Below, in pieces: positions 1 through 53,773 of a DNA stretch of 53,773 bases. Origin of the DNA: a virus; the IMG/VR virus record IMGVR_UViG_3300027985_000172, positions 1 through 53,773 of that record. The stretch is one strand, 5' to 3'. The notes beneath the pieces are model-generated. The model saw only the letters and a program-made list of their open reading frames with translations, was not told the DNA's origin and searched no databases. The translations under genes were made by a program, and so were the position numbers. Positions within the stretch are counted from its first letter, which is position 1. Every line of letters starts with the position of its first letter.

Positions 1-144
1 TGGTGAAATTTCTTATGACCATTCTGGCGAGTGGATGAAACCACAGACATTAGAAAAAGCCCTTGCAGAATACATGAAGAAATACCGTGTAGGTAAGACA
101 AATCACGCGGGCGATAAATCTGCTGAGACAGTGTTTGCTTTCCC
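1..144. repeat. terminal direct repeat, left copy (circular overlap)
   Basis: These 144 bases are identical to positions 53630-53773. The repeat lies wholly inside one open reading frame that is continuous across the joined ends. This indicates a circularly closed or circularly permuted assembly rather than physical genome termini. Removing one copy gives a unit of 53,629 bp. Confidence 0.95.
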
Positions 145-316
145 TATTACAAAAGAGATTTCCACAGCACTTGGTATTCAGTCTGGCAGGGAGGGGGCTA
201 TTGTTGGCCAATATATTCCTGATGATAACGACTGGAAAGACGTGAAAAGTGGAAAATACCCTGCTTTCTCTATTGGAGGTAGGGCAGTGGGTGGAAACCC
301 AAGACTGAGAGGATAG
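2..316 (+). CDS. ChaB-XkdF prohead protein (putative protease), C-terminal part
   Basis: This is the 3' part of the gene that starts at 53376; the joined product is 189 aa. This portion carries the XkdF-like domain, with residues such as SGEWMKP, NHAGDKSAETVF and FSIGG. XkdF-like proteins are annotated as putative phage serine proteases of capsid maturation; no catalytic triad can be assigned here by eye. The stop is followed after one base by the start of the scaffold gene, and the major capsid gene is two genes on, which is the usual place for a prohead protease. The true start is not in this copy, so any in-frame ATG here (for example at 35) is internal. Confidence 0.8.
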   Translation, partial: GEISYDHSGEWMKPQTLEKALAEYMKKYRVGKTNHAGDKSAETVFAFPITKEISTALGIQSGREGAIVGQYIPDDNDWKDVKSGKYPAFSIGGRAVGGNPRLRG

Positions 317-27174: not shown

Positions 27175-27405
27175 TTAAAACGTAATGGTGATGGAGTCAC
27201 CTTTGTAGAACTTTTTGGTTGCATCTTCAAGCAGGTTTTCCCACATACCATCACCGGGTAGATAAAAGGGTTTACACTGATCATATGACTCGTCGCTTGG
27301 GAATCCAATAGTTCCACCATCATCAGTCTTTACATAAAAGTGTGTCGCAGAAATAATGGCTACCACTTCACGGTTTTCTTTTTCAGTCTTGTAATCAAAC
27401 TTCAT
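27175..27405 (-). CDS. 76-aa unknown protein with YKGDxI end
   Basis: The product is 76 aa. Its end (FYKGDSITITF) and body (VVAIISATHFYVKTDDGGTI) resemble the C-terminal domain of the 389-aa KOW-like protein at 37187-38356 (VVAFKTQGHTYIKVEDNTF and FYKGDTISFVL). The two appear to be paralogous domains. Role unknown. Confidence 0.6.
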   Translation of the reverse strand: MKFDYKTEKENREVVAIISATHFYVKTDDGGTIGFPSDESYDQCKPFYLPGDGMWENLLEDATKKFYKGDSITITF

Positions 27406-27580
27406 TGTTTACCTCATATTCTGTAATTAGGTATGGAACAAATGTGGCGTCCCAACCATTGATTAAATTAATCCCGGCGTCTGATAGGCCCAACTGTCGA
27501 AAGGCTTTATCATAAGCGTAGAAAATTTCTTCGTATTCCTCTGGAATGTCATACACCCCATCAACAGCTTCGACAAGCAT
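27395..27580 (-). CDS. 61-aa unknown protein
   Basis: The product is 61 aa, acidic, starting MLVEAVDGVYDIPEEYEEIF. GGAG-like sequence precedes the ATG. The region between it and the polymerase gene (27581-27696) has no convincing gene and a small TGGGAA/TTCCCA hairpin near 27626-27639. Confidence 0.55.
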   Translation of the reverse strand: MLVEAVDGVYDIPEEYEEIFYAYDKAFRQLGLSDAGINLINGWDATFVPYLITEYEVNNEV

Positions 27581-27696
27581 TTGCTATCTCCCTTGACTCC
27601 TTTAAGCCTTACACTAATAAATATGGGAATTTTCCCACGTTTCATTCCATTGCTTGTAGCAAATACCTGATGTGTTGCAGAAATGATTCACCTGCG

Positions 27697-34196: not shown

Positions 34197-34375
34197 TTCT
34201 TCTTTCCTTTAGCCCAAGGTTTCCTGAATTTATCTCTCTTACATAAAGAGTAGTATCTATTTTCTTCCAATCTGCTACCAAGTCTCATATGCTTCTTGAA
34301 ACTGTAAAGTCTTGTTTGACCTGCAAACCAGAACAAATAGTCATTATAAGCATTTCTAAGTTTCATTCCTGCCAC
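34193..34375 (-). CDS. 60-aa basic protein
   Basis: The product is 60 aa, strongly basic at its end (RDKFRKPWAKGKKK) and aromatic-rich, hence a possible nucleic-acid binder. It is the first gene downstream (leftward) of the CTTAAG-rich region and so may be the first gene of a transcription unit. No family recognised. Confidence 0.55.
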   Translation of the reverse strand: MAGMKLRNAYNDYLFWFAGQTRLYSFKKHMRLGSRLEENRYYSLCKRDKFRKPWAKGKKK

Positions 34376-34383
34376 CTATATAT

Positions 34384-34527
34384 CTTAAGAAGGTATATCT
34401 CCATGAGAACCTAATAAGATACTAATGACTACATTCTAATGTTATACTCATTAGTTACTCTTAAGTAATATTATACATACTAGTATATTAAATCTCTTAA
34501 GAATGTTTCTTAAGGAGGATTCTTAAG
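34384..34527 (-). promoter_or_regulatory. CTTAAG-rich regulatory module A
   Basis: Five CTTAAG hexamers lie in 144 bases (34384, 34460, 34496, 34509, 34522). Between them are ACTAATG/CATTAGT inverted elements and ACTAGTATATTA. On the minus strand the stretch CTTAAGAGTAACTAATGAGT (34446-34465) matches module B at 46414-46434. The flanking gap (34376-34643) has no convincing gene. It precedes the leftward gene at 34375 in the direction of transcription. Confidence 0.6.
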
Positions 34528-34643
34528 AGGGTTACATAAGTATACTATGGGAGGATTTCGGATTCTTATTCCACACCACATGCAGAAAGTTGCTAAGTGT
34601 TGCAGGTATGATACAGGAATCTGCTATAGGGGTAGTATGATAC

Positions 34644-42903: not shown

Positions 42904-42972
42904 AATATCTGTGTATAAACATATATTGATATACAGATATTTAGATATTCCCATATATTGATATACAGATAT
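42904..42972. repeat. AT-rich iterons, two direct copies plus an inverted one
   Basis: CATATATTGATATACAGATAT occurs at 42920-42940 and again at 42952-42972 exactly, 32 bases apart (about three helical turns). An inverted, slightly divergent copy AATATCTGTGTATA lies at 42904-42917. Such spacing is typical of repeated protein-binding sites at origins or operators. Confidence 0.75.
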
Positions 42973-43342: not shown

Positions 43343-43569
43343 TTAGCCATGCCGCGACGGGATATATCCGAAGGGGAGTGGGGCTGGCGGCCCTGCCTAG
43401 GACCAAGACTCACTGAGAGTCACTAACAGGTCAGATATGCACCCTTTACCTTTACCGCTAGAAGCAAGGCCGCGCAGATTGCCCCGCATGCTAACACTAG
43501 CGAAAGGTTTTCTCGGAAAGCTTTAGCAAAGGCTTTCTCAGTAAACCTAACATAAGAAAGGGAAATAAA

Positions 43570-43974
43570 ATGACTGACGAAATCACTTATAGTGCTGTTT
43601 TGCGGCGGATTGAATACAGCGCTAAAGAAATCATCGAGGAGCTTGCACCTTTTCCCAAGGAAAACACGGTTGAAGCTTGGGAGGCTTATCAAGAAGCTCT
43701 TGAATCTTTCTTTGATGATTCCCGTGATATGGCATGGGGGGAAGTCGGAAATTGGGATTGGATGATTTATACGTATCAAGGATTCCTTGTTTACGATTGC
43801 CTCCCTTCTGACCTGCAAACCCAATGCGAGGAGGAATATTGGGAATGTAACGGTGCTGTGAAAGGTGAAAGCCCCTATGAACTCGGCGCTTCAATGGCTT
43901 TTTTTGCTCTTGTGTCCTTGCTGGCTCAAGAGATTGAACGGCAATCTCAGAACCAAATGGAGAATCTTAGCTAA
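43570..43974 (+). CDS. 134-aa acidic early protein
   Basis: The product is 134 aa with many Glu and Asp and few basic residues (DSRDMAWGEVGNWDWMIYTY, CEEEYWECNGAVKGESPYEL). A good AAAGGG site precedes the ATG. It is the first gene of the rightward early block, where host takeover proteins are often encoded. A DNA-mimic anti-restriction or host-inhibitor role is possible but not shown. No family recognised. Confidence 0.65.
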   Translation: MTDEITYSAVLRRIEYSAKEIIEELAPFPKENTVEAWEAYQEALESFFDDSRDMAWGEVGNWDWMIYTYQGFLVYDCLPSDLQTQCEEEYWECNGAVKGESPYELGASMAFFALVSLLAQEIERQSQNQMENLS

Positions 43975-44120
43975 TGTGGGTTGTCAAATTTAGCCCTATT
44001 TTCTCTTTTGGGGATAAAGACAGGCGAGAGTTTGAGACAGAAGAAAAAGCAAAGCAATGGGCGCAAATGTGCGGCTATAGCAAAACCTGCAAAATCGAGG
44101 AAAAGGAAAAGACAGAATGA
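43974..44120 (+). CDS. 48-aa early protein
   Basis: The frame encodes MWVVKFSPIFSFGDKDRREF and ends EEKEKTE. Start and end are coupled to neighbours by TAATG and ATGA. Beta-then-helix, with basic and acidic clusters. No family recognised. Confidence 0.6.
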   Translation: MWVVKFSPIFSFGDKDRREFETEEKAKQWAQMCGYSKTCKIEEKEKTE

Positions 44121-44281
44121 AACTTGCTACCGACTCTAAATGCTACTCCCTCGCAAAAGAAGGACTCGTCTCCATGATCCCCTTTGGCCCGCTTATGTCT
44201 TTGCAAGAAGCCCAACAAATGCGGCAATTCTATGCGGAAATCGGCGAGGAATATTTCGTCGTGAATCTGCAAAGCTTGTGA
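44117..44281 (+). CDS. 54-aa early protein
   Basis: The frame encodes MKLATDSKCYSLAKEGLVSM and ends VVNLQSL. It overlaps the preceding gene by ATGA. It shares the MKLA start with the gene at 45112 by chance or ancestry. No family recognised. Confidence 0.6.
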   Translation: MKLATDSKCYSLAKEGLVSMIPFGPLMSLQEAQQMRQFYAEIGEEYFVVNLQSL

Positions 44282-44316
44282 AACAAGCGCCCCTCCACAG
44301 CCTGTAAGGAAACAAG

Positions 44317-44523
44317 ATGAAAACATATCCCGAAGACAAGGCGGATTTTGTGATCGAAAACAAACCCACCATTACTTTCGTCAGGGCTAAATCACACAAA
44401 GCCAAAAAGGCAATGCCTATTTGGGCGCCAAGTTATGAAAGGGCTATTGCTGCACAAGACACACAAGCCTTAATCGCTTGGCTTTGTGAAAAAGGCTTTA
44501 AGCCTTGCATTAAACTTACCTGA
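44317..44523 (+). CDS. 68-aa basic early protein
   Basis: The product is 68 aa, basic in its middle (VRAKSHKAKKAMPIWAPSYE). A GGAAA site precedes the ATG. No family recognised. Confidence 0.6.
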   Translation: MKTYPEDKADFVIENKPTITFVRAKSHKAKKAMPIWAPSYERAIAAQDTQALIAWLCEKGFKPCIKLT

Positions 44524-44552
44524 ATCAATCAAACATGAGAGGAAACTGATAA

Positions 44553-44798
44553 ATGACGAATCTGGAAACAATCAAAAAGCAATTGGCTCAAGCTGAAAAG
44601 GCGAAGGCCGAAATGGAAAAGCTGACGCAAGAGGCTGACCAGAAGGTTATCCAAGCGCAAGAGGCTCTGGAACAAGCCAAGCAAGAACGCAGGGGGCTTT
44701 ACGAAAGCCTTGGGCTTAGTGTCCATAAAGGCCGCCCCAAAGGTTCCAAGAACAAGCCGAAACAGGACGTTGAAACGCCCCCTAGCGAAGAGGCTTAA
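44553..44798 (+). CDS. coiled-coil AT-hook protein
   Basis: The product is 81 aa. Residues 1-52 form a continuous coiled coil (KKQLAQAEKAKAEMEKLTQE). The basic segment HKGRPKGSKNKPK near residues 57-69 contains an AT-hook (GRPKGSKNKP), and the C-terminus is acidic. This layout, an oligomerising coil plus minor-groove hook, recalls H-NS-type nucleoid proteins. Likely a DNA-binding regulator or silencer or antisilencer; H-NS relation is inferred, not shown. Confidence 0.7.
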   Translation: MTNLETIKKQLAQAEKAKAEMEKLTQEADQKVIQAQEALEQAKQERRGLYESLGLSVHKGRPKGSKNKPKQDVETPPSEEA

Positions 44799-44876
44799 TG
44801 TGTCTTTATTGGTTAGCCTTTAGGGGATTCCTTTAGGCTAACTAGACAAATGCACATACAAGAAAAGGGAAAGAAG

Positions 44877-45098
44877 ATGAAACCGACTCCTAGCCTTTGT
44901 CAGCTTATCAAGCCTTGTGAATATGTATTTCAGCGTGGAATCAAGGCATATGAAAGGGCGGAAACTCTTATTGATGAATACATCAGCGAAAGCGAAATTA
45001 GCTTTTGTGAGAATCCTAGGGTGCAAGGATATGGAAAGGGCAAGGAACGGCGTTATGCAATTGTTCTAACAGATACCAACCTGATTCAATATCTGTGA
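44877..45098 (+). CDS. 73-aa early protein
   Basis: The product is 73 aa from ATG 44877, with GGGAAAG seven bases upstream; an ATG at 44850 is less likely. Contains QLIKPCEYVFQRGIKAYERA and a C-terminal beta stretch. No family recognised. Confidence 0.6.
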   Translation: MKPTPSLCQLIKPCEYVFQRGIKAYERAETLIDEYISESEISFCENPRVQGYGKGKERRYAIVLTDTNLIQYL

Positions 45099-45111
45099 AA
45101 GGAAAGACAGA

Positions 45112-45339
45112 ATGAAATTAGCAGTTTGTGATAATGTGGAAAGCCTTGTTGAATACCTCACAAGGGAAGGTTGGTTTTTCGAGGGTTCCGACGATGCAGG
45201 GCAGTTCTGGAATCACCCTATTAGCGGGGCTGAAGTTGTCTTGGACTATGGCCCGGATGGTGAGGGACGGCTTAGGCTTGATGGGGTATCCCACTGTGAG
45301 GTTGCCCAGATGGGGGCGTATGTTGTGGGGTATGCCTAA
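45112..45339 (+). CDS. 75-aa early protein
   Basis: The product is 75 aa, acidic, starting MKLAVCDNVESLVEYLTREG and containing YGPDGEGRLRLDGVS. It is the last gene of the early rightward block. The region after it (45340-46708) is non-coding. Confidence 0.6.
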   Translation: MKLAVCDNVESLVEYLTREGWFFEGSDDAGQFWNHPISGAEVVLDYGPDGEGRLRLDGVSHCEVAQMGAYVVGYA

Positions 45340-45443
45340 GAGGGCCTGTGGTGGTTCTATAGCCCTCCCCATACACTCGGCTAGGATAATAGCCAAAGCA
45401 TGACAATGCGATCTAGAACCCCTCCTATAGGCTCTGTGCTATA

Positions 45444-45659
45444 TGTTACATTATAACACTAGATCAACATGTTAGGGTAGTATTTAAGGGAGCATATTTG
45501 ACTCTTTGGTAAATGTTTTATCGTTTGGTAAAATACTGTGGTTGCTGCACCCTTCCCTCTCTATGTCAACAATTACTTTCACATCCTCTTGTAACTCATT
45601 GTCATTGTTACATTTATACAACACTCACCATTGCTTGCCCTATGTGTTACATTATAACA
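45444..45659. repeat. pair of TGTTACATTATAACA inverted-repeat sites
   Basis: The 15-bp sequence TGTTACATTATAACA, itself an inverted repeat (TGTTA/TAACA), occurs exactly at 45444-45458 and 45645-45659, each preceded by TAT. A related TGTTACA...TGTAACA pair lies near 46173-46191. Single TGTTACA or TGTAACA motifs occur between. Likely operator sites for a dimeric regulator. Confidence 0.7.
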
Positions 45660-45695
45660 TGACGTAACGTAAACTAGTATGTGCTACCTTCCCTG

Positions 45696-45761
45696 GTGCA
45701 GGTAGTTCAACCATTGAACCATCTATAAGATGCATTGTGCAGGAATGTTTAACCATTGAAC
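45696..45761. repeat. pair of GTTCAACCATTGAAC palindromes
   Basis: GTTCAA-CCA-TTGAAC at 45705-45719 is a perfect inverted repeat. GTTTAACCATTGAAC at 45747-45761 has one change. Each is preceded by GTGCAGG within about ten bases, making a longer direct repeat (45696-45719 and 45737-45761). A second class of binding site in the same gap. Confidence 0.7.
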
Positions 45762-45902
45762 TATTCTTTTGTTTCACCCATTGTAACAATTCGTGATGTC
45801 TCTTGTGTAACAATCTCTTGACGAATCATGTGAGGTATGCATGGGACCCTTGGAATTATTCCAAAGTGAAATGGGGGTGGGTGGTTTACCCTCCATAAGC
45901 CT

Positions 45903-46087
45903 AAAGAAAAATTTCAAAATGGCCTATTTACTTAGTAAATCCCCCGTAACTACAAAGAAAGATTTCAAAAGGGTCTTATCATTAGGTCTAACCAGACACA
46001 AATACAAAGAAAATTCCTAACCTGCTCCCATGGAAAATCATCTAACCAAAACCTGCCAAAATACAAAAAAGAAAATTTCTAAAGGGC
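45903..46087. repeat. four AAAGAAA-ATTTC-AAAGGG iterons
   Basis: Copies at 45903-45924, 45954-45975, 46006-46020 (shorter) and 46065-46087 follow the pattern AAAGAAA(A/G)ATTTC(A/T)AAAGGG. Spacing is 50-60 bases, and the strand is A-rich. A 76-codon ATG frame (46030-46260) crosses part of this array but looks like chance. Candidate origin or packaging-recognition repeats. Confidence 0.65.
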
Positions 46088-46356
46088 TTTTGACCAGATT
46101 CTACCAGTTCAGACCAAAAAGACACAATTCAAAAGCTGTTTCTGAAAATATTCCACACAATCTGATCACTTTTTGTTACAATCTCTGTAACATTGTGATG
46201 TTTGTTGCAAACTTTCTTTCGTTCAGAATCAACCAGTTAGCAATTATCACGCTTTTGTGATGTAATTTCCTGCACCCAGATGGAATAAAAACCCCAAAAT
46301 TTCCCATATATATTAGTAGGGGTAGGGGTTACTAAGGTATCCTACCAATGAAGGTG

Positions 46357-46532
46357 CTTAAGAGAGTATCTTAAGAAAGTAGTATATCTGTTAAGTAAAT
46401 ATTACATAAGGTTCTTAAGAAGTAACTAATGTGTAATCATTAGTATACACCTTATGAACTAGTTATTACTAACTAGTATATTATATATTAATAAGAATAT
46501 AACTAATGTATAATCATTAGTATAGTCTTAAG
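46357..46532 (+). promoter_or_regulatory. CTTAAG-rich regulatory module B
   Basis: CTTAAG occurs at 46357, 46370, 46414 and 46527. A 24-bp direct repeat AACTAATG(T)GTAATCATTAG lies at 46424-46447 and 46501-46524 with one mismatch; each copy is an ACTAATG/CATTAGT inverted repeat. CTTAAGAAGTAACTAATG matches module A on the opposite strand. It lies upstream of the terminase genes, so late control is likely. Confidence 0.65.
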
Positions 46533-46567
46533 AAGGTTTCCAATACGAACTACCTTCTATAGTTGCG

Positions 46568-46595
46568 GCAGGTTTAAGAGGCTACGCCTCCCTGC
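46568..46595 (+). other. nested hairpin before terminase genes
   Basis: GCAGG (46568-46572) pairs with CCTGC (46591-46595) and GAGGC (46578-46582) with GCCTC (46586-46590) across a TAC loop; TTTAA is bulged. A second stem GAATAG/CTATTC lies near 46633-46649. Located between module B and the small terminase, it could be part of a packaging site or an mRNA leader structure. Confidence 0.45.
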
Positions 46596-46708
46596 ATTAC
46601 GGACTACCATCCTTAAGATAGTGTCCATTAAAGAATAGCTCTCCTATTCACCATACACATCAAGACATGATGGACTTTAGGTAGAGCTTCCTATTTAGGC
46701 AGGTTGAT

Positions 46709-47130
46709 ATGAGAACTACAGACCCAACTCCATACAGCAAAGATATTGAGAACTTTGTTAAGAAGTATGCTCTGTCAAGAATATTACCAACATCTTTGAA
46801 CTTGCTAAAGAGCAAGGCTTTCAGAATATGCCTTCCTCAAGAACTACCTTCTCTAAGCTTTACAAACATATTGTTGATAAGATTAAAGCTGACAAGATTG
46901 TGCAGGTAGCAGATAAAGTCTATGCTAACGCTGTTGGCAGGGATGAGAATGATCCGGGCTGCTTCAAGTCTCAAGAACTGATTCTAACAACCCAATCTGG
47001 GTGGGTGAAAACGAACGTCAATGTGGATGTTGTGGTTGATGAAGAAGATACATCAGCACGTATTGCTCTCCTAGAAGCCCTGGGAATTTCGCCTGACGAC
47101 ATTAGTAAAGAATCTGGACAGGAAGACTAA
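46709..47130 (+). pseudogene. small terminase subunit, reading frame broken
   Basis: From ATG 46709 (AGG seven bases upstream) the frame gives TPYSKDIENFVKKYALS and then runs into nonsense. The -1 frame continues the helix-turn-helix-like sense: VKNITNIFELAKEQGFQNMP and SSRTTFSKLYKHIVDKIKAD to 47130. The shift is near 46769-46780. A single missing base (GCTCTnGTC) would restore one protein of about 140 aa. It is a deletion, a sequencing error, or a translational frameshift; no classical slippery heptamer is seen. An ATG at 46828 could make a 100-aa C-terminal form. Confidence 0.7.
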
Positions 47131-47260
47131 GGTTTATTATTGTTGTGGAAAAGAGTTTATTACAGTCACCGGACACTATTGCAGCCAACGATGCGTTAAC
47201 CTAGCAACCAATGGCGGTAATGTAGTCACAAAGCACAGCAGACGTAAAAATGAACAATAA
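47114..47260 (+). CDS. zinc-finger-like frame without a standard start
   Basis: The frame reads KVYYCCGKEFITVTGHYCSQ, RCVNLATNGG to a basic end, with CC...C..C spacing of a zinc finger. It overlaps the terL start by ATGAACAATAA, as real genes here do. It has no ATG, GTG or TTG; CTG at 47114 is the only candidate, or a +1 slip at the small terminase stop (GAC TAA G). Coding status is uncertain. Confidence 0.4.
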   Translation: MDRKTKVYYCCGKEFITVTGHYCSQRCVNLATNGGNVVTKHSRRKNEQ

Positions 47261-48623
47261 ATCGGTCGCCGAATACTTAAAAGGACTACCCAAAGAAAAA
47301 CTGATTGAAGCTGTAAAAAGTCTCTCTCCTACCCAAGCAGATGAAATCCTCCATGATTGGGATATTTGGGCTAGACCTAAGCAGCTTCCGCCAGAAGGAA
47401 AAGATTGGTTTATCTGGTGGGTTAACGCAGGTCGATTTTTTGGGAAAACCAGATGTGGTGCTGAGTGGGTTCGGTCAGAGGTAAAGAAGGGTGCTAAGGA
47501 CATTGCTATCGTAGGACGGACTGCTGCTGAAACTGCTGACGTTTGTCTTTATGGTAGATCAGGGCTTCTTAATGTTTGTTGGGATAAAGACAAAGACAAC
47601 AAAGGGAAGCACATGGGCCTCCCTGTATATAACAAGACCTCTAAGAAGCTCACTTGGGCTAATGGGGCTGTTGCTAAACTATTCTCATCAGAAGAACCAG
47701 AGGCCCCTCGTGGAAGTCAGTTTGAACTCCTTTGGGCAGACGAACTGGGTAGTTGGACCTATCAACAAGAGATGTGGGACCAACTTATGTTCTGTATGCG
47801 CCTTGGTAGACCTAGGGTGGCTATTACAACCACACCACAATCAACAGCCTTCCTACGCAAGCTTTCTAAACGTGAAGACGTTGTTGTAACAACAGGTTCC
47901 TCATATGAGAACACACAAGCTCCTGAGAAGTTCTTAAACGAACTTAAAGAACGCTATGAGGGAACGCGGCTTGGCAGACAAGAGATTTATGCTGAAATCC
48001 TAACAGAGAACGAGGGTGCTCTCTGGACAATGGATATGATTGACCAGTGTCAAATCGACCTTGATGAAGTTCCTGATCTAGTTCGCATTGTAGTTGCTGT
48101 AGACCCCGCCACTACGAACAACGTAGAAAGTGACTCTACTGGTATCATTGTTGCAGGTGTTGATATTAACGGGGTTGGTTATGTTCTTGGTGACTACACC
48201 ATGAAAGACCTTCCTGAGAAATGGGCAACTAAAGCTGTAGACCTCTACCACGAATTTGAAGCCTCCCGTTTGGTCTATGAGAAGAACCAAGGGGGCGACA
48301 TGATTCCCACCCTGTTTAGGCAGGTAGACGAGAATGTTCCGCTAAGGGGGGTTCATGCGTCTGTAGCCAAGATTGCTCGTGCTGAGCCTGTTTCGGCCCT
48401 CTATGAGCGTGGTAAAGTGAAGCATGTGCGTAACCCCAAGAATGGTGCCTCCCTCACTGAGCTAGAGACTCAGATGACCACATACGAGCCTATGGGGAAG
48501 CATAAATCTCCAGATAGATATGATGCTCTTGTGTGGGCTTTAACTGACTTGATGCTTAAAGGTCGTGCAAGACCTGAACTTTCTTTCTCTTATGCCTCTG
48601 CGGCAGAACTACAACGTAATTAG
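47250..48623 (+). CDS. terL: terminase large subunit
   Basis: The product is 457 aa. The ATPase Walker A is NAGRFFGKT (residues about 59-67), Walker B is LLWADELG near 165, and the nuclease acidic start is VVAVDPATT near 282, followed by the RNase H-like fold (YEKNQGGDM). It packages DNA into the prohead with the small subunit. It starts inside the end of the zinc-finger-like frame. Confidence 0.95.
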   Translation: MNNKSVAEYLKGLPKEKLIEAVKSLSPTQADEILHDWDIWARPKQLPPEGKDWFIWWVNAGRFFGKTRCGAEWVRSEVKKGAKDIAIVGRTAAETADVCLYGRSGLLNVCWDKDKDNKGKHMGLPVYNKTSKKLTWANGAVAKLFSSEEPEAPRGSQFELLWADELGSWTYQQEMWDQLMFCMRLGRPRVAITTTPQSTAFLRKLSKREDVVVTTGSSYENTQAPEKFLNELKERYEGTRLGRQEIYAEILTENEGALWTMDMIDQCQIDLDEVPDLVRIVVAVDPATTNNVESDSTGIIVAGVDINGVGYVLGDYTMKDLPEKWATKAVDLYHEFEASRLVYEKNQGGDMIPTLFRQVDENVPLRGVHASVAKIARAEPVSALYERGKVKHVRNPKNGASLTELETQMTTYEPMGKHKSPDRYDALVWALTDLMLKGRARPELSFSYASAAELQRN

Positions 48624-48693: not shown

Positions 48694-49019
48694 AAGTGCC
48701 ACAGATTTACCATAAGAGAGGGGACACACTCTCACTAACTTGCACTTGGGCAGATTCTACAGGCACCCCAATTGATATTACTAGTTACACTGTAGAGAGC
48801 AAAGTAAAGGCCACCAATTTCACTGATACACTTACCGTAACTAAGACGGACCCAACTAACGGTGAGTTTGTGTTGTCAGCTACAGCAACAGCTACAGAAA
48901 GTTGGCCTATATCAGAAGGTAAAGCATCTTACCTTTTCTGTGATGTTCAGTTTACCCTCTCTGGTGTAGTTACATCTACAGAGACCTTCCAGATTGTTGT
49001 GCTAGAGGATATTACCTAA
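48690..49019 (+). CDS. BppU-like tail fibre domain protein
   Basis: The product is 109 aa from GTG 48690. The sequence YHKRGDTLSLTCTWADSTGT, then DITSYTVESKVK, is characteristic of the N-terminal domain of BppU-type baseplate or fibre proteins (RGDTxxx..xxxDGTPxDLTGxT). It overlaps the tail spike gene by ATGC-like spacing, so the two probably form one receptor-binding unit. Confidence 0.7.
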   Translation: MKVPQIYHKRGDTLSLTCTWADSTGTPIDITSYTVESKVKATNFTDTLTVTKTDPTNGEFVLSATATATESWPISEGKASYLFCDVQFTLSGVVTSTETFQIVVLEDIT

Positions 49020-50977
49020 TGCCTATTACAGTGGTAAACAACAACTCTCTAGTTTCTACACTTCAGCAAACCAATCCGATCACCATCAATCTACCCTCTG
49101 CTGTAGATATGTCTTCCGTGGCTCTACAAGCAGTAGAGGCCGCAGAAGCCGCGCAGGCTGGTGCTGAGGCTGCTGTTGCGGAACTTCCTAGCGTGCCAAG
49201 CGTCACATCGCTAGGAGCGACTGATTCTGCTGACCCGTCTGGTCGGGAGGTCTACGCGGCGGCGCTGGTGACCTCCATGCAGTCGTATAAGCGCTATGGC
49301 GTCACCTTGAGAGCGCTTCTCGGCGGTCTTTATGACCCAGCAAATGATGCGGCTGCTACACTGAGTGGCTTTATCGCAGAGCTTGCGCCAGCAGGAATTA
49401 CGATCACCGATCCTGACCGGCTGACTGTTCTGTGCGAAGAACCTGTCCGGCTTGTCGATGGCCTCAAGATGCATCTTGGCGGGACGTATTTCAGGAAGGG
49501 GTATTCCGCGACAAGTGCGGCTGGTGATGCCCTTTTCGGGCGCGCGACATGGGGCACCATGACTAACGATTTCGACCTGCGAGGGTTCTCCGTCGGCGCG
49601 GCATCCGCGACGCAGACTGGGAAACTGTTTGCGCTGCTGGGTGACCGATGGAACGTCTCTGACATCCACATTGACGGATATTGGGGCGGACAGGCGTTTG
49701 TCTTTGGCGGGAACGACTTCTCGATCCGCGATGTTTCCGGCGGCACGGAAAGCACAACGTTCGGGACTGGTTTCATGCGCTGCCTGGGTGGTAGCAACGG
49801 CCTGATCCAGAACGTCAAGGACGCAAAATCTGGAGATGACCTGTTCCAATTCGTTCCGATTGGCGCAGCCGCAGATCCATATTACGGGGCCGACATCGAC
49901 AATATCTGGTATATCGGATGCACCGGCCAGTCGCACTCCGGGCGGGTCATGATCGCCGCACTGGAAAGCGACGAAGCCGGGGTAATCACCAGCAAGATTC
50001 GAAACAGCGGATGGATCGCATGCGGCGGGAAGAGTGGAAACCGTGCGCTGTGCATTCTGAATACGGATGGCAACCAAGGCGCGCGCCAGATCGACAATAT
50101 TTCCGCAATTGGGTGTCGTGTGGATGGGTCGGAGGACGCTGGCGCCGCAACTTACCTGGCAGAGATTTCGACAAACGTATCTGGCGGTGTTGGTCGTGTG
50201 AATATTGACAAGTGTGTCATCGAGAAAAACCCGAAGGCCACAGGGTTCTATGTCGGATTCTCGGCGCACGAGGGCGGGATGCTGTCGCTGCGCGATAGCG
50301 TCGTTGAGGGAGAAGTTTCCGCGATCGCTACCGGAACGTCAGGATATGGCGAAATTGTCATCGACGGAGGGCGCCTTTCGGTTATCAACCAGGGCGGCGG
50401 TCATGGAGCGGGCATGGTTGTTGCCGACAACGGAGCTGCGCGTATCACGGCCAGAAATGTCGAGGCGACAGGGGTTGCCAGCACGAAATCTGCATTCCGC
50501 ACCAATCATGCTGCGGCGCGACATGACCTGCGCGGCGTCACTGTGCGCAAAGCGGCTGGCGCGACAAGCACTCGCGTTTCGTCCAACATCGCTGGCGCGA
50601 CGGTCTACATCGAAGACCCGCGAGGGGACTATGACGAGCTGGAAAACGGCGGATATGCGCGCCTGAATCCGATGCCTGGGAAAATCAGCTATAACGTCCT
50701 GCGCGCCGGAACTGCACAGACTCTCAGCGCGGCATACATCGGAAAGCTGAACAAATTGCAGTCGGCATCACCGATCACACTGACAATCCCTGCGAACGCA
50801 ACAGATCCGATTCAGGCCGGGGTTTGGATTGATTTTGTTGTTCCTGGCGCCGGTGCAGTCACCATCAGCCCAGCGGGTGGCGTCACCATTCAGGGGGCAA
50901 CGTCAATCGCATCTGGCGGTTGGTTTAGCATGATGAAACTCGGCGACGGCGGGGATGCGTGGACGGTGCGGTCGTGA
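49019..50977 (+). CDS. tail spike, beta-helix, imported
   Basis: The product is 652 aa. The first about 45 residues are phage-like (VVNNNSLVSTLQQTNPITIN) with a short coiled coil (ALQAVEAAEAAQAGAEAAVA). From about 49190 the DNA becomes GC-rich to 50977. Repeated short strands with NGLIQNV, DIHIDGY and IDNISAIGCRVDG suggest a right-handed beta-helix as in pectate lyase-like tailspikes. A C-terminal domain (VPGAGAVTISPAGGVTIQ) follows. Probably a depolymerase or receptor-binding spike; the catalytic residues are not assigned. It lies between terL and the portal, which is unusual. Confidence 0.75.
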   Translation: MPITVVNNNSLVSTLQQTNPITINLPSAVDMSSVALQAVEAAEAAQAGAEAAVAELPSVPSVTSLGATDSADPSGREVYAAALVTSMQSYKRYGVTLRALLGGLYDPANDAAATLSGFIAELAPAGITITDPDRLTVLCEEPVRLVDGLKMHLGGTYFRKGYSATSAAGDALFGRATWGTMTNDFDLRGFSVGAASATQTGKLFALLGDRWNVSDIHIDGYWGGQAFVFGGNDFSIRDVSGGTESTTFGTGFMRCLGGSNGLIQNVKDAKSGDDLFQFVPIGAAADPYYGADIDNIWYIGCTGQSHSGRVMIAALESDEAGVITSKIRNSGWIACGGKSGNRALCILNTDGNQGARQIDNISAIGCRVDGSEDAGAATYLAEISTNVSGGVGRVNIDKCVIEKNPKATGFYVGFSAHEGGMLSLRDSVVEGEVSAIATGTSGYGEIVIDGGRLSVINQGGGHGAGMVVADNGAARITARNVEATGVASTKSAFRTNHAAARHDLRGVTVRKAAGATSTRVSSNIAGATVYIEDPRGDYDELENGGYARLNPMPGKISYNVLRAGTAQTLSAAYIGKLNKLQSASPITLTIPANATDPIQAGVWIDFVVPGAGAVTISPAGGVTIQGATSIASGGWFSMMKLGDGGDAWTVRS

Positions 50978-51048
50978 CCCACCTCTGGCCCATCTAACTG
51001 ACGTGCTTCTCACCAGATATTCAAACAATAGACTAAAGGGTGTTCTTA

Positions 51049-53375: not shown

Positions 53376-53773
53376 ATGCCATATGCAACAAATGATTCTT
53401 TACCAAAGGCTGTAAGGGATAAACTTTCTGCACACCAACAAGATGTATTTCGTAATGTGTTCAACTCAATGATGAACCAAGACGGAATAGACGAGAGCAG
53501 GGCTTTTGCAGGGGCATGGGCACAAGCTAAGAAAGCCCCTAAAGTTAAGAAAAACCTTAGGGTAGATATTCTTAAGATCAATGAAGAACAAAGAATTATC
53601 TACGGATGGGCCTATGTTTGCACAGAAGATGGTGAAATTTCTTATGACCATTCTGGCGAGTGGATGAAACCACAGACATTAGAAAAAGCCCTTGCAGAAT
53701 ACATGAAGAAATACCGTGTAGGTAAGACAAATCACGCGGGCGATAAATCTGCTGAGACAGTGTTTGCTTTCCC
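53376..53773 (+). CDS. ChaB-XkdF prohead protein, N-terminal part
   Basis: This is the 5' part of the 189-aa gene that continues at positions 145-316 after the circular overlap. Residues 1-52 are ChaB-like (DSLPKAVRDKLSAHQQDVFR, then ESRAFAGAWAQAKK), and residues from about 60 are XkdF-like (VDILKINEEQRIIYGWAYV). ChaB-XkdF fusions occur in some phages next to the capsid genes, where XkdF is a putative protease. Start ATG 53376 is preceded by AGGAA. Confidence 0.85.
   Translation, partial: MPYATNDSLPKAVRDKLSAHQQDVFRNVFNSMMNQDGIDESRAFAGAWAQAKKAPKVKKNLRVDILKINEEQRIIYGWAYVCTEDGEISYDHSGEWMKPQTLEKALAEYMKKYRVGKTNHAGDKSAETVFAF
53630..53773. repeat. terminal direct repeat, right copy
   Basis: Identical to positions 1-144 over all 144 bases. 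It marks where the circular molecule was cut open in the assembly. Counting it twice would duplicate part of the ChaB-XkdF gene. Confidence 0.95.

Follow-up and report, generated by a model that had tools for sequence, protein, structure and literature searches.

A repeat-rich region upstream of terS as a candidate control region for a phage late operon

The longest part of a 53.8-kb phage record without a plausible gene (45340–46708) lies directly upstream of terS and terL, on the same strand, as does its counterpart in relatives, and raises the question of what such a stretch is for. The record analysed here, called the window below (53,773 bases, taken at full length), looks like a complete phage genome. 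No stop interrupts the join of its last and first ORFs across the record ends, where a stretch of 48 residues (144 nt) appears twice (window 1–316 and 53376–53773). Because this stretch occurs twice across the joined ends, the record ends overlap by about 144 bases, which is probably an untrimmed overlap of a molecule that appears to have been assembled as a circle. Genes run rightward from about 43 kb through the record ends to 14 kb, and leftward from 14 to 43 kb. We favour, with moderate confidence, the reading that the region controls the late (packaging and structural) operon by means of two promoters and a structured leader, and is not primarily an origin. The features that frame it are:

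45340–46708, + strand: the whole putative control region, flanked by the last small rightward ORF and by terS; the largest ORF-poor part of the record
46709–47130, + strand: terS, split over two frames (46709–46909 and 46828–47130); TerS proteins of relatives match 46708–47133 with internal stops (E down to 1e-12)
47250–48623, + strand: terL, matching phrog_979 (E 7e-38)

Gene content, relatives and repeats

An initial annotation had called 45340–46708 non-coding, and this is borne out: there is no ORF of at least 80 aa within 45404–46827, and the 76-aa ATG ORF at 46030–46260, which overlaps the A-rich copies and element D described below, is probably spurious. Inspection of sequences from nine relatives and from Roseobacter phage CRP-6 revealed an equivalent non-coding stretch upstream of terS. 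Relatives mostly carry a single terS ORF of about 130–150 aa; the two-frame split in our record may be an assembly error or may be real. A search for relatives of the upstream ORF 44850–45098 found none. Elsewhere in the window, positions 49001–51000 form a GC island (57–59% against about 43%) that covers an ORF of 652 aa (49019–50977) with no PHROG match.

TerL relatives were collected by a first scan (20 loci, 53–61% identity), an alignment-based scan (80 rows, partly overlapping the first) and a species-genome scan (39, mostly far), and 99 loci with distinct sequence near TerL were retained for comparison; no relative with a TerL more than 61% identical turned up. CRP-6 (MK613348; tested as L281) is the sole named TerL relative at 50% identity or more, and a DNA search of 45100–47300 against named phages gave no match. 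Identical and near-identical leaders were removed before C promoters, leader motifs and leader folding were counted, and L162 was left out of alignment A3. Comparative alignment, which the initial annotation had suggested, revealed an ordered architecture upstream of terS in about 100 TerL relatives, phages that are for the most part uncultured: element C is followed by TGTWACA boxes, a strand-fixed element D, a promoter, P2, with a G-rich start, and finally a palindrome-rich leader.

The repeats of the window that bear on this order are:

45444–45458, + strand: first copy of TGTTACATTATAACA, a TGTWACA box (exact match)
45645–45659, + strand: second copy of TGTTACATTATAACA (exact match)
45705–45722, no strand assigned: operator-like inverted repeat, copy 1, GTTCAACCATTGAACCAT (direct-repeat family D10)
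45747–45764, no strand assigned: operator-like inverted repeat, copy 2, GTTTAACCATTGAACTAT (direct-repeat family D10, 89%)
45949–45971, 46006–46020, 46068–46082 and 46113–46135, + strand: further A-rich copies (families D1, D3 and D15)
46412–46534, + strand: nested inverted repeat I1, enclosing a 25-nt repeat pair (D4, a 96% direct repeat at 46423/46500)
45444, 45606, 45645, 45782, 45806, 46174 and 46186: TGTWACA boxes (pattern matches)

The initial annotation had counted at least four classes of repeats, and those that it named are present. The TGTTACATTATAACA pair is exact (45444 and 45645); the GTTCAACCATTGAAC pair is exact at 45705, its second copy at 45747 being GTTTAACCATTGAAC, one base different. 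The four A-rich iterons correspond to copies at 45898, 45949, 46006/46068 and 46113 (direct-repeat families D1, D3 and D15), and the nested hairpin before terS to a 33-nt, 76% inverted repeat with arms at 46412–46444 and 46502–46534; 'module B', for which no definition was given, may be the 25-nt repeat at 46423/46500. Only the direct repeats exceed chance. Seven exact direct 12-mer pairs occur in the region, against a mean of 0.16 in shuffles (0 of 200 reach seven), and elsewhere in the record 5 of 199 comparison segments hold at least as many. Counts of hairpins with arms of at least 8 (reached in 72 of 200 shuffles of the region) and of inverted 10-mer pairs (129 of 200) are not above chance, and single repeat patterns allowing mismatches gave a marginal five matches against 2.33 and 2.83 by chance.

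The TGTWACA boxes are concentrated here, with seven of the 13 in the record falling inside the region (0.33 expected), and in relatives their density is 1.40 per kb upstream of TerL against 0.19 per kb downstream. When TGTTACATTATAACA was used as an IMG/VR search probe it proved too common to discriminate, among the matches listed. GTTTAA..TTAAAC repeats like the 45705 pair occupy the same place in relatives L001 and L003, and L009 carries GTTTCACGTGAAAC (L009:280–300) in that slot; this resembles a chromosomal parS site, a reading drawn from L009 alone. Extra partial A-rich copies were seen in L010, L012 and L207 (E 0.11–0.14).

Iteron-like repeats and a kilobase of 35.5% GC would suit a replication origin, at which an initiator would bind the TGTWACA boxes and A-rich iterons beside an AT-rich palindromic unwinding region. 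The cumulative GC skew is also lowest near 43 kb, some 2.5 kb from the region; however, the skew turns with gene direction and not at the region, and no initiator gene was found among the part of the ORFs searched. We consider an origin here improbable, for these reasons and for others given with element D. At the skew minimum itself, a divergent intergenic stretch (42914–42972) holds an AT-rich tandem repeat (16-nt unit, 3.7 copies) and is an alternative origin candidate.

Element C and the packaging-site alternative

45815–45923, + strand: element C, with GGGACCC (45843–45849), ATTAT (about 45856–45860), a G-rich stretch and an A-rich tail that includes the first A-rich copy

The first A-rich 'iteron' of the region is the tail of element C, a block of about 110 bp laid out as TGGGACCCT, ATTATACG, a G-rich stretch and then GAATCCAAAACAAAGAAATT-like A-rich sequence. 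Applied to 72 untrained upstream regions, a model of C built from 21 loci gave E<0.01 in 46, the window among them and every match on the + strand; some of the untrained loci are near-copies of trained ones. In the window, which did not contribute to the model, C is found with a nhmmer E of 9.2e-10 in the upstream region and of 7.2e-10 in the whole record, where it is the single match up to E 10. The 3-kb downstream controls gave one weak match (E 0.9). In CRP-6, C falls at one place (E 7e-11), three more matches appearing only at E 0.73–4. An exact 23-mer from the A-rich tail gave 0 matches. When IMG/VR was scanned with the 17-base core TGGGACCCTNNNNATTATACG, TerL was found in 35 of the 44 contigs recovered and began 705–1074 nt downstream of the core, on the same strand, in 34 of them; the remaining nine contigs end within 930 nt. 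In the one exception, L307, C is inverted, so that it faces a long inverted repeat (GGCGATAGGATAGG..CCTATCGCC) of the other strand and not terS (L307:6040–6300).

We suggest that C is an upstream block with regulated promoter/operator function, characterized by GGGWCCC and, in many relatives, by a TTGACA box that can belong to a TGTCAA-N4-TTGACA inverted repeat; the TGTWACA boxes and short inverted repeats near C would then be regulator sites. A strict test for a sigma70-type promoter (−35 of at least 5/6, spacing 16–18, −10 of at least 4/6) was passed by 13 of 58 distinct copies of C, against a null mean of 0.72 and maximum of 4, and failed by the other 45. The window's own C lacks a −35 at the normal distance (best 3/6, at spacing 20), and a simple promoter scan of 43500–47500 showed no excess (6 against 8.4).

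The strongest of the rival explanations places a cos/pac site within C: terminase would cut at GGGWCCC and TerS would bind the A-rich repeats, giving the order cut site, binding sites, terS of lambda-type cos. C is indeed single-copy per genome and, with few exceptions among relatives, immediately precedes terS, it offers a 7-bp near-palindrome followed by A-rich repeats, and two contigs (L186 and L227) begin inside its A-rich tail. The remaining contig starts, a weak indicator, show no cluster at C, however, and both the inversion in L307 (the other 34 of 35 being on the TerL strand) and the promoter hexamers overlapping those 13 of 58 distinct copies speak against a packaging site, which we think unlikely. 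Distant TerL relatives were considered as precedents. R5C (42%) is mentioned in a paper in whose accessible sections the RcGTA-like TerL group falls among headful phages (PMC7947584), it being this group's placement, and not R5C's own, that enters the comparison; for Tank and Wilde (37% TerL), the accessible part of PMC5513430 gives direct terminal repeats of 589 bp. Because these relatives divide between a headful-type group and direct terminal repeats, as far as those sources extend, the cos precedent is not consistent.

Element D, promoter P2 and the leader

46213–46243, + strand: element D, a degenerate copy (TTTCTTTCGTTCAGAATCAACC) and putative activator site; the best match in the record yet weak (E 0.96), strong in relatives
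46289–46350, + strand: P2, with CATATATATTAG (−10-like) and GGGGTAGGGG at 46319–46328 (presumed start region)

Element D is best defined in relatives. A model built from 10 loci found it in 13 more at E<0.05, all on the + strand and none downstream. An iterated model reached 47 of 92 regions (E≤0.05); because this version was rebuilt from, and so retrained on, its own matches, our conclusions on D use the 10-locus model. An 18-mer of D from relatives was found in 23 IMG/VR stretches, 14 with TerL (12 of 21 tested, plus L011 and L012, which had entered via TerL) and nine without TerL in the fetched DNA, most of which look like unrelated coding sequence. A 36-nt D consensus and a 601-base stretch of L142, each compared with named phages, gave chance-like matches only.

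P2 is a conserved block with GGGGTA(A/G)GGGG. A model from 11 sites in relatives, with the window excluded, finds it in the window with a nhmmer E of 0.0012, the best in the record; thus for P2, as for C, the best match in the whole record falls in the region, upstream of terS as in relatives. P2-like sites elsewhere in the window numbered 10, against 1–6 in ten shuffles, and were mostly poor. One of the sequences seen there, TTCCCATATTTATTAGT on the − strand (27613–27633), is one mismatch from the P2 box and lies about 35 nt before ORF 27395–27580.

In relatives, D and the −10-like box are mostly 73–75 nt apart and otherwise often 82–85 nt, about one helical turn more. D, which keeps a single orientation just upstream of P2 and a spacing that varies by helical turns, would be an activator site, and P2, which is sigma70-like, would initiate late transcription at a G-rich sequence or at AGAGAG. 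The conserved D–P2 spacing fits a promoter and, like the fixed strand of C, D and the M1 hairpin described below towards terS, argues against an origin.

46318–46708, + strand: palindrome-rich leader of the terS–terL operon, presumably transcribed (RNA fold z −4.06)
46547–46557, + strand: M2 copy 1, GAACTACCTTC (pattern match)
46601–46611, + strand: M2 copy 2, GGACTACCATC, followed by CTTAAG (pattern match)

From P2, the late transcript would open with a palindrome-rich leader of 0.3–0.6 kb, which contains one of two hairpins (M1 or M3) in relatives, and then enter terS. The window leader folds with z −4.06 on the + strand and −5.73 on the − strand (control 45900–46300, −0.60); because folding is stronger on the opposite strand, its palindromes could also act as DNA. 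Over 28 loci (the window and 27 distinct loci drawn at random) the mean leader z is −2.70 sense and −2.26 antisense, against −0.22 for terL. ACTTAAGT/ACTATAGT palindromes number 119 in leaders (4.0 expected) and are present in 40 of 59 distinct ones; the window leader has CTTAAG and lacks ACTTAAGT. The M2 motif, GNNCTACCN[ACT]C, occurs 23 times sense and three times antisense (null 1.6), in 16 of the 59 leaders, that of the window included.

M1 is an RNA hairpin predicted in relatives, in which an AAC/CCGAU internal loop separates the outer stem from a CAAGAC/GUCUUG stem. In an alignment of 25 sequences, 87.7% of cells pair and all seven outer pairs show two-sided changes; the rows were chosen by a sequence pattern that fixes most inner-stem pairs (17–61 free, 18–60 half free) and leaves the outer stem unfixed. 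The alignment scores 0.458 for covariation; shuffles give 0.170 ± 0.022, and slid versions do not exceed 0.185. A model (R1) matched 43 of 100 sources tested at E≤0.041, always sense, 23 of the 43 being untrained and some of these near-copies of trained loci. Of 43 IMG/VR matches to the M1 pattern, 42 are followed by a TerL of this family 519–939 nt downstream; the exception, L346, has only 693 nt of downstream DNA, with no TerL in it. A second hairpin, M3, occurs in nearer TerL relatives, where 12 of 52 sources tested match its model (R2) at E<1e-6. It is paired and variable (covariation 0.528 against 0.133, in rows partly selected for pairing); because six of the nine rows had passed a pairing filter, this count leans toward structure. 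Neither hairpin is found in the window, where R1 reaches at best 6.1 bits (E 1.3) and R2 5.3 bits.

Rfam gave 0 matches in the window and, at the gathering threshold in 13 relatives, one tRNA only, a tRNA gene within the terS leader region of L018 (L018:3986–4057; RF00005). In this sense M1 is a new candidate RNA motif of the relatives, belonging to no Rfam family at gathering score.

In the early region of the window, 34364–34573 on the − strand is a leader-like stretch with five CTTAAG sites (three of them 13 nt apart) and a fold z of −2.66. It also holds an inverted repeat of the TAACTAATG...CATTAGTAT type, resembling the one at 46423, and a P2-like TGGAATAAGAATCC..CCCATAGTATA stretch. A second leader copy at 34.4 kb is suggested by this, but was set aside since its single matches are not above shuffles.

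A compact hairpin that covaries and goes with terS, as M1 does, would also suit an RNA that is processed from the leader and acts in trans, either on the host or in packaging, the role of phi29 pRNA. Fewer than half of the loci searched have M1, however, and the window is not among them; to our knowledge pRNA phages lack terS. A precedent exists in staphylococcal phages, whose structured terS–terL RNAs activate CBASS (accessible part of PMC10686824). We regard a free RNA of this kind as a poor prospect.

Late-operon control and known systems

We return to control of the late operon. The initial annotation had proposed an origin, a packaging site or a regulatory RNA. Regulation is supported, in that C and P2 are conserved and M1 covaries in relatives; a regulatory RNA of the window itself is less well served, as its leader has neither M1 nor M3 and folds on both strands, and the origin gained no specific support. 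Against control in the window stand its weak D (E 0.96), a C without a −35 at the normal distance, the absence of M1 and M3, and an antisense leader that folds better. If control does operate, the leader might tune expression of the terminase and structural genes, whether by TerS feedback, by governing ribosome access or by antitermination. Among the ORFs examined, none proved to be a single-subunit RNA polymerase, and no large one is left that could be; host polymerase with a phage regulator is therefore a plausible machinery.

A bolder proposal, which we hold only tentatively and rate as rather doubtful, is that this marine-type group of phages has, in its terS leaders, a new class of phage RNA, in which alternative modules share the slot between promoter and terS: M1, M3 or, in the window, one unrelated to either. 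Such RNAs might aid read-through of the late operon by the polymerase or link the making of terminase to DNA packaging, the AAC/CCGAU loop serving as a binding site for TerS or the motor. The window would indicate that the leader slot tolerates different folds, and an RNA acting in packaging or antitermination would, if real, be a new RNA function for a very common phage group. CRP-6-type phages are described as ubiquitous in the ocean in the accessible part of PMC6918029, which makes no mention of the region; nor did the literature covered, itself partial, yield a description of the region, of M1 or of late control in CRP-6-type phages. The terS leader of CRP-6 resembles the window in having C, D and a P2-like promoter at the same place, and differs in carrying M1, which is absent from the window. 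CRP-6 is culturable, and the strand-fixed promoter architecture and terS-linked covarying RNA are testable targets in it.

Late-operon promoters with activator sites are known from the Mu C and phage P2 Ogr type. The likeness lies in a conserved site upstream of a packaging/structural promoter with helical-phase spacing, whereas the present region combines two blocks of promoter sequence with the separate site D and a long structured leader, and no gene for the putative activator was found. In lambda-type cos regions the order is cosN–cosB–terS. The region shares with them a near-palindrome and repeats immediately upstream of terS, and differs in the promoter hexamers inside C and the inversion of C in L307. 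The HK022 put RNA and antiterminated late leaders are structured RNAs that open a long phage operon. Here too structured RNA stands at the start of an operon, a comparison of structure type and not of sequence; unlike put, M1 has the fold outer stem–AAC/CCGAU internal loop–CAAGAC stem, and falls below the Rfam gathering score (13 loci). Finally, the cabRNA of staphylococcal phages is likewise a structured RNA from the terminase region, but is located, in the accessible part of PMC10686824, inside the terS–terL coding sequence, whereas the RNA proposed here would lie in a non-coding leader, with helices that covary in relatives.
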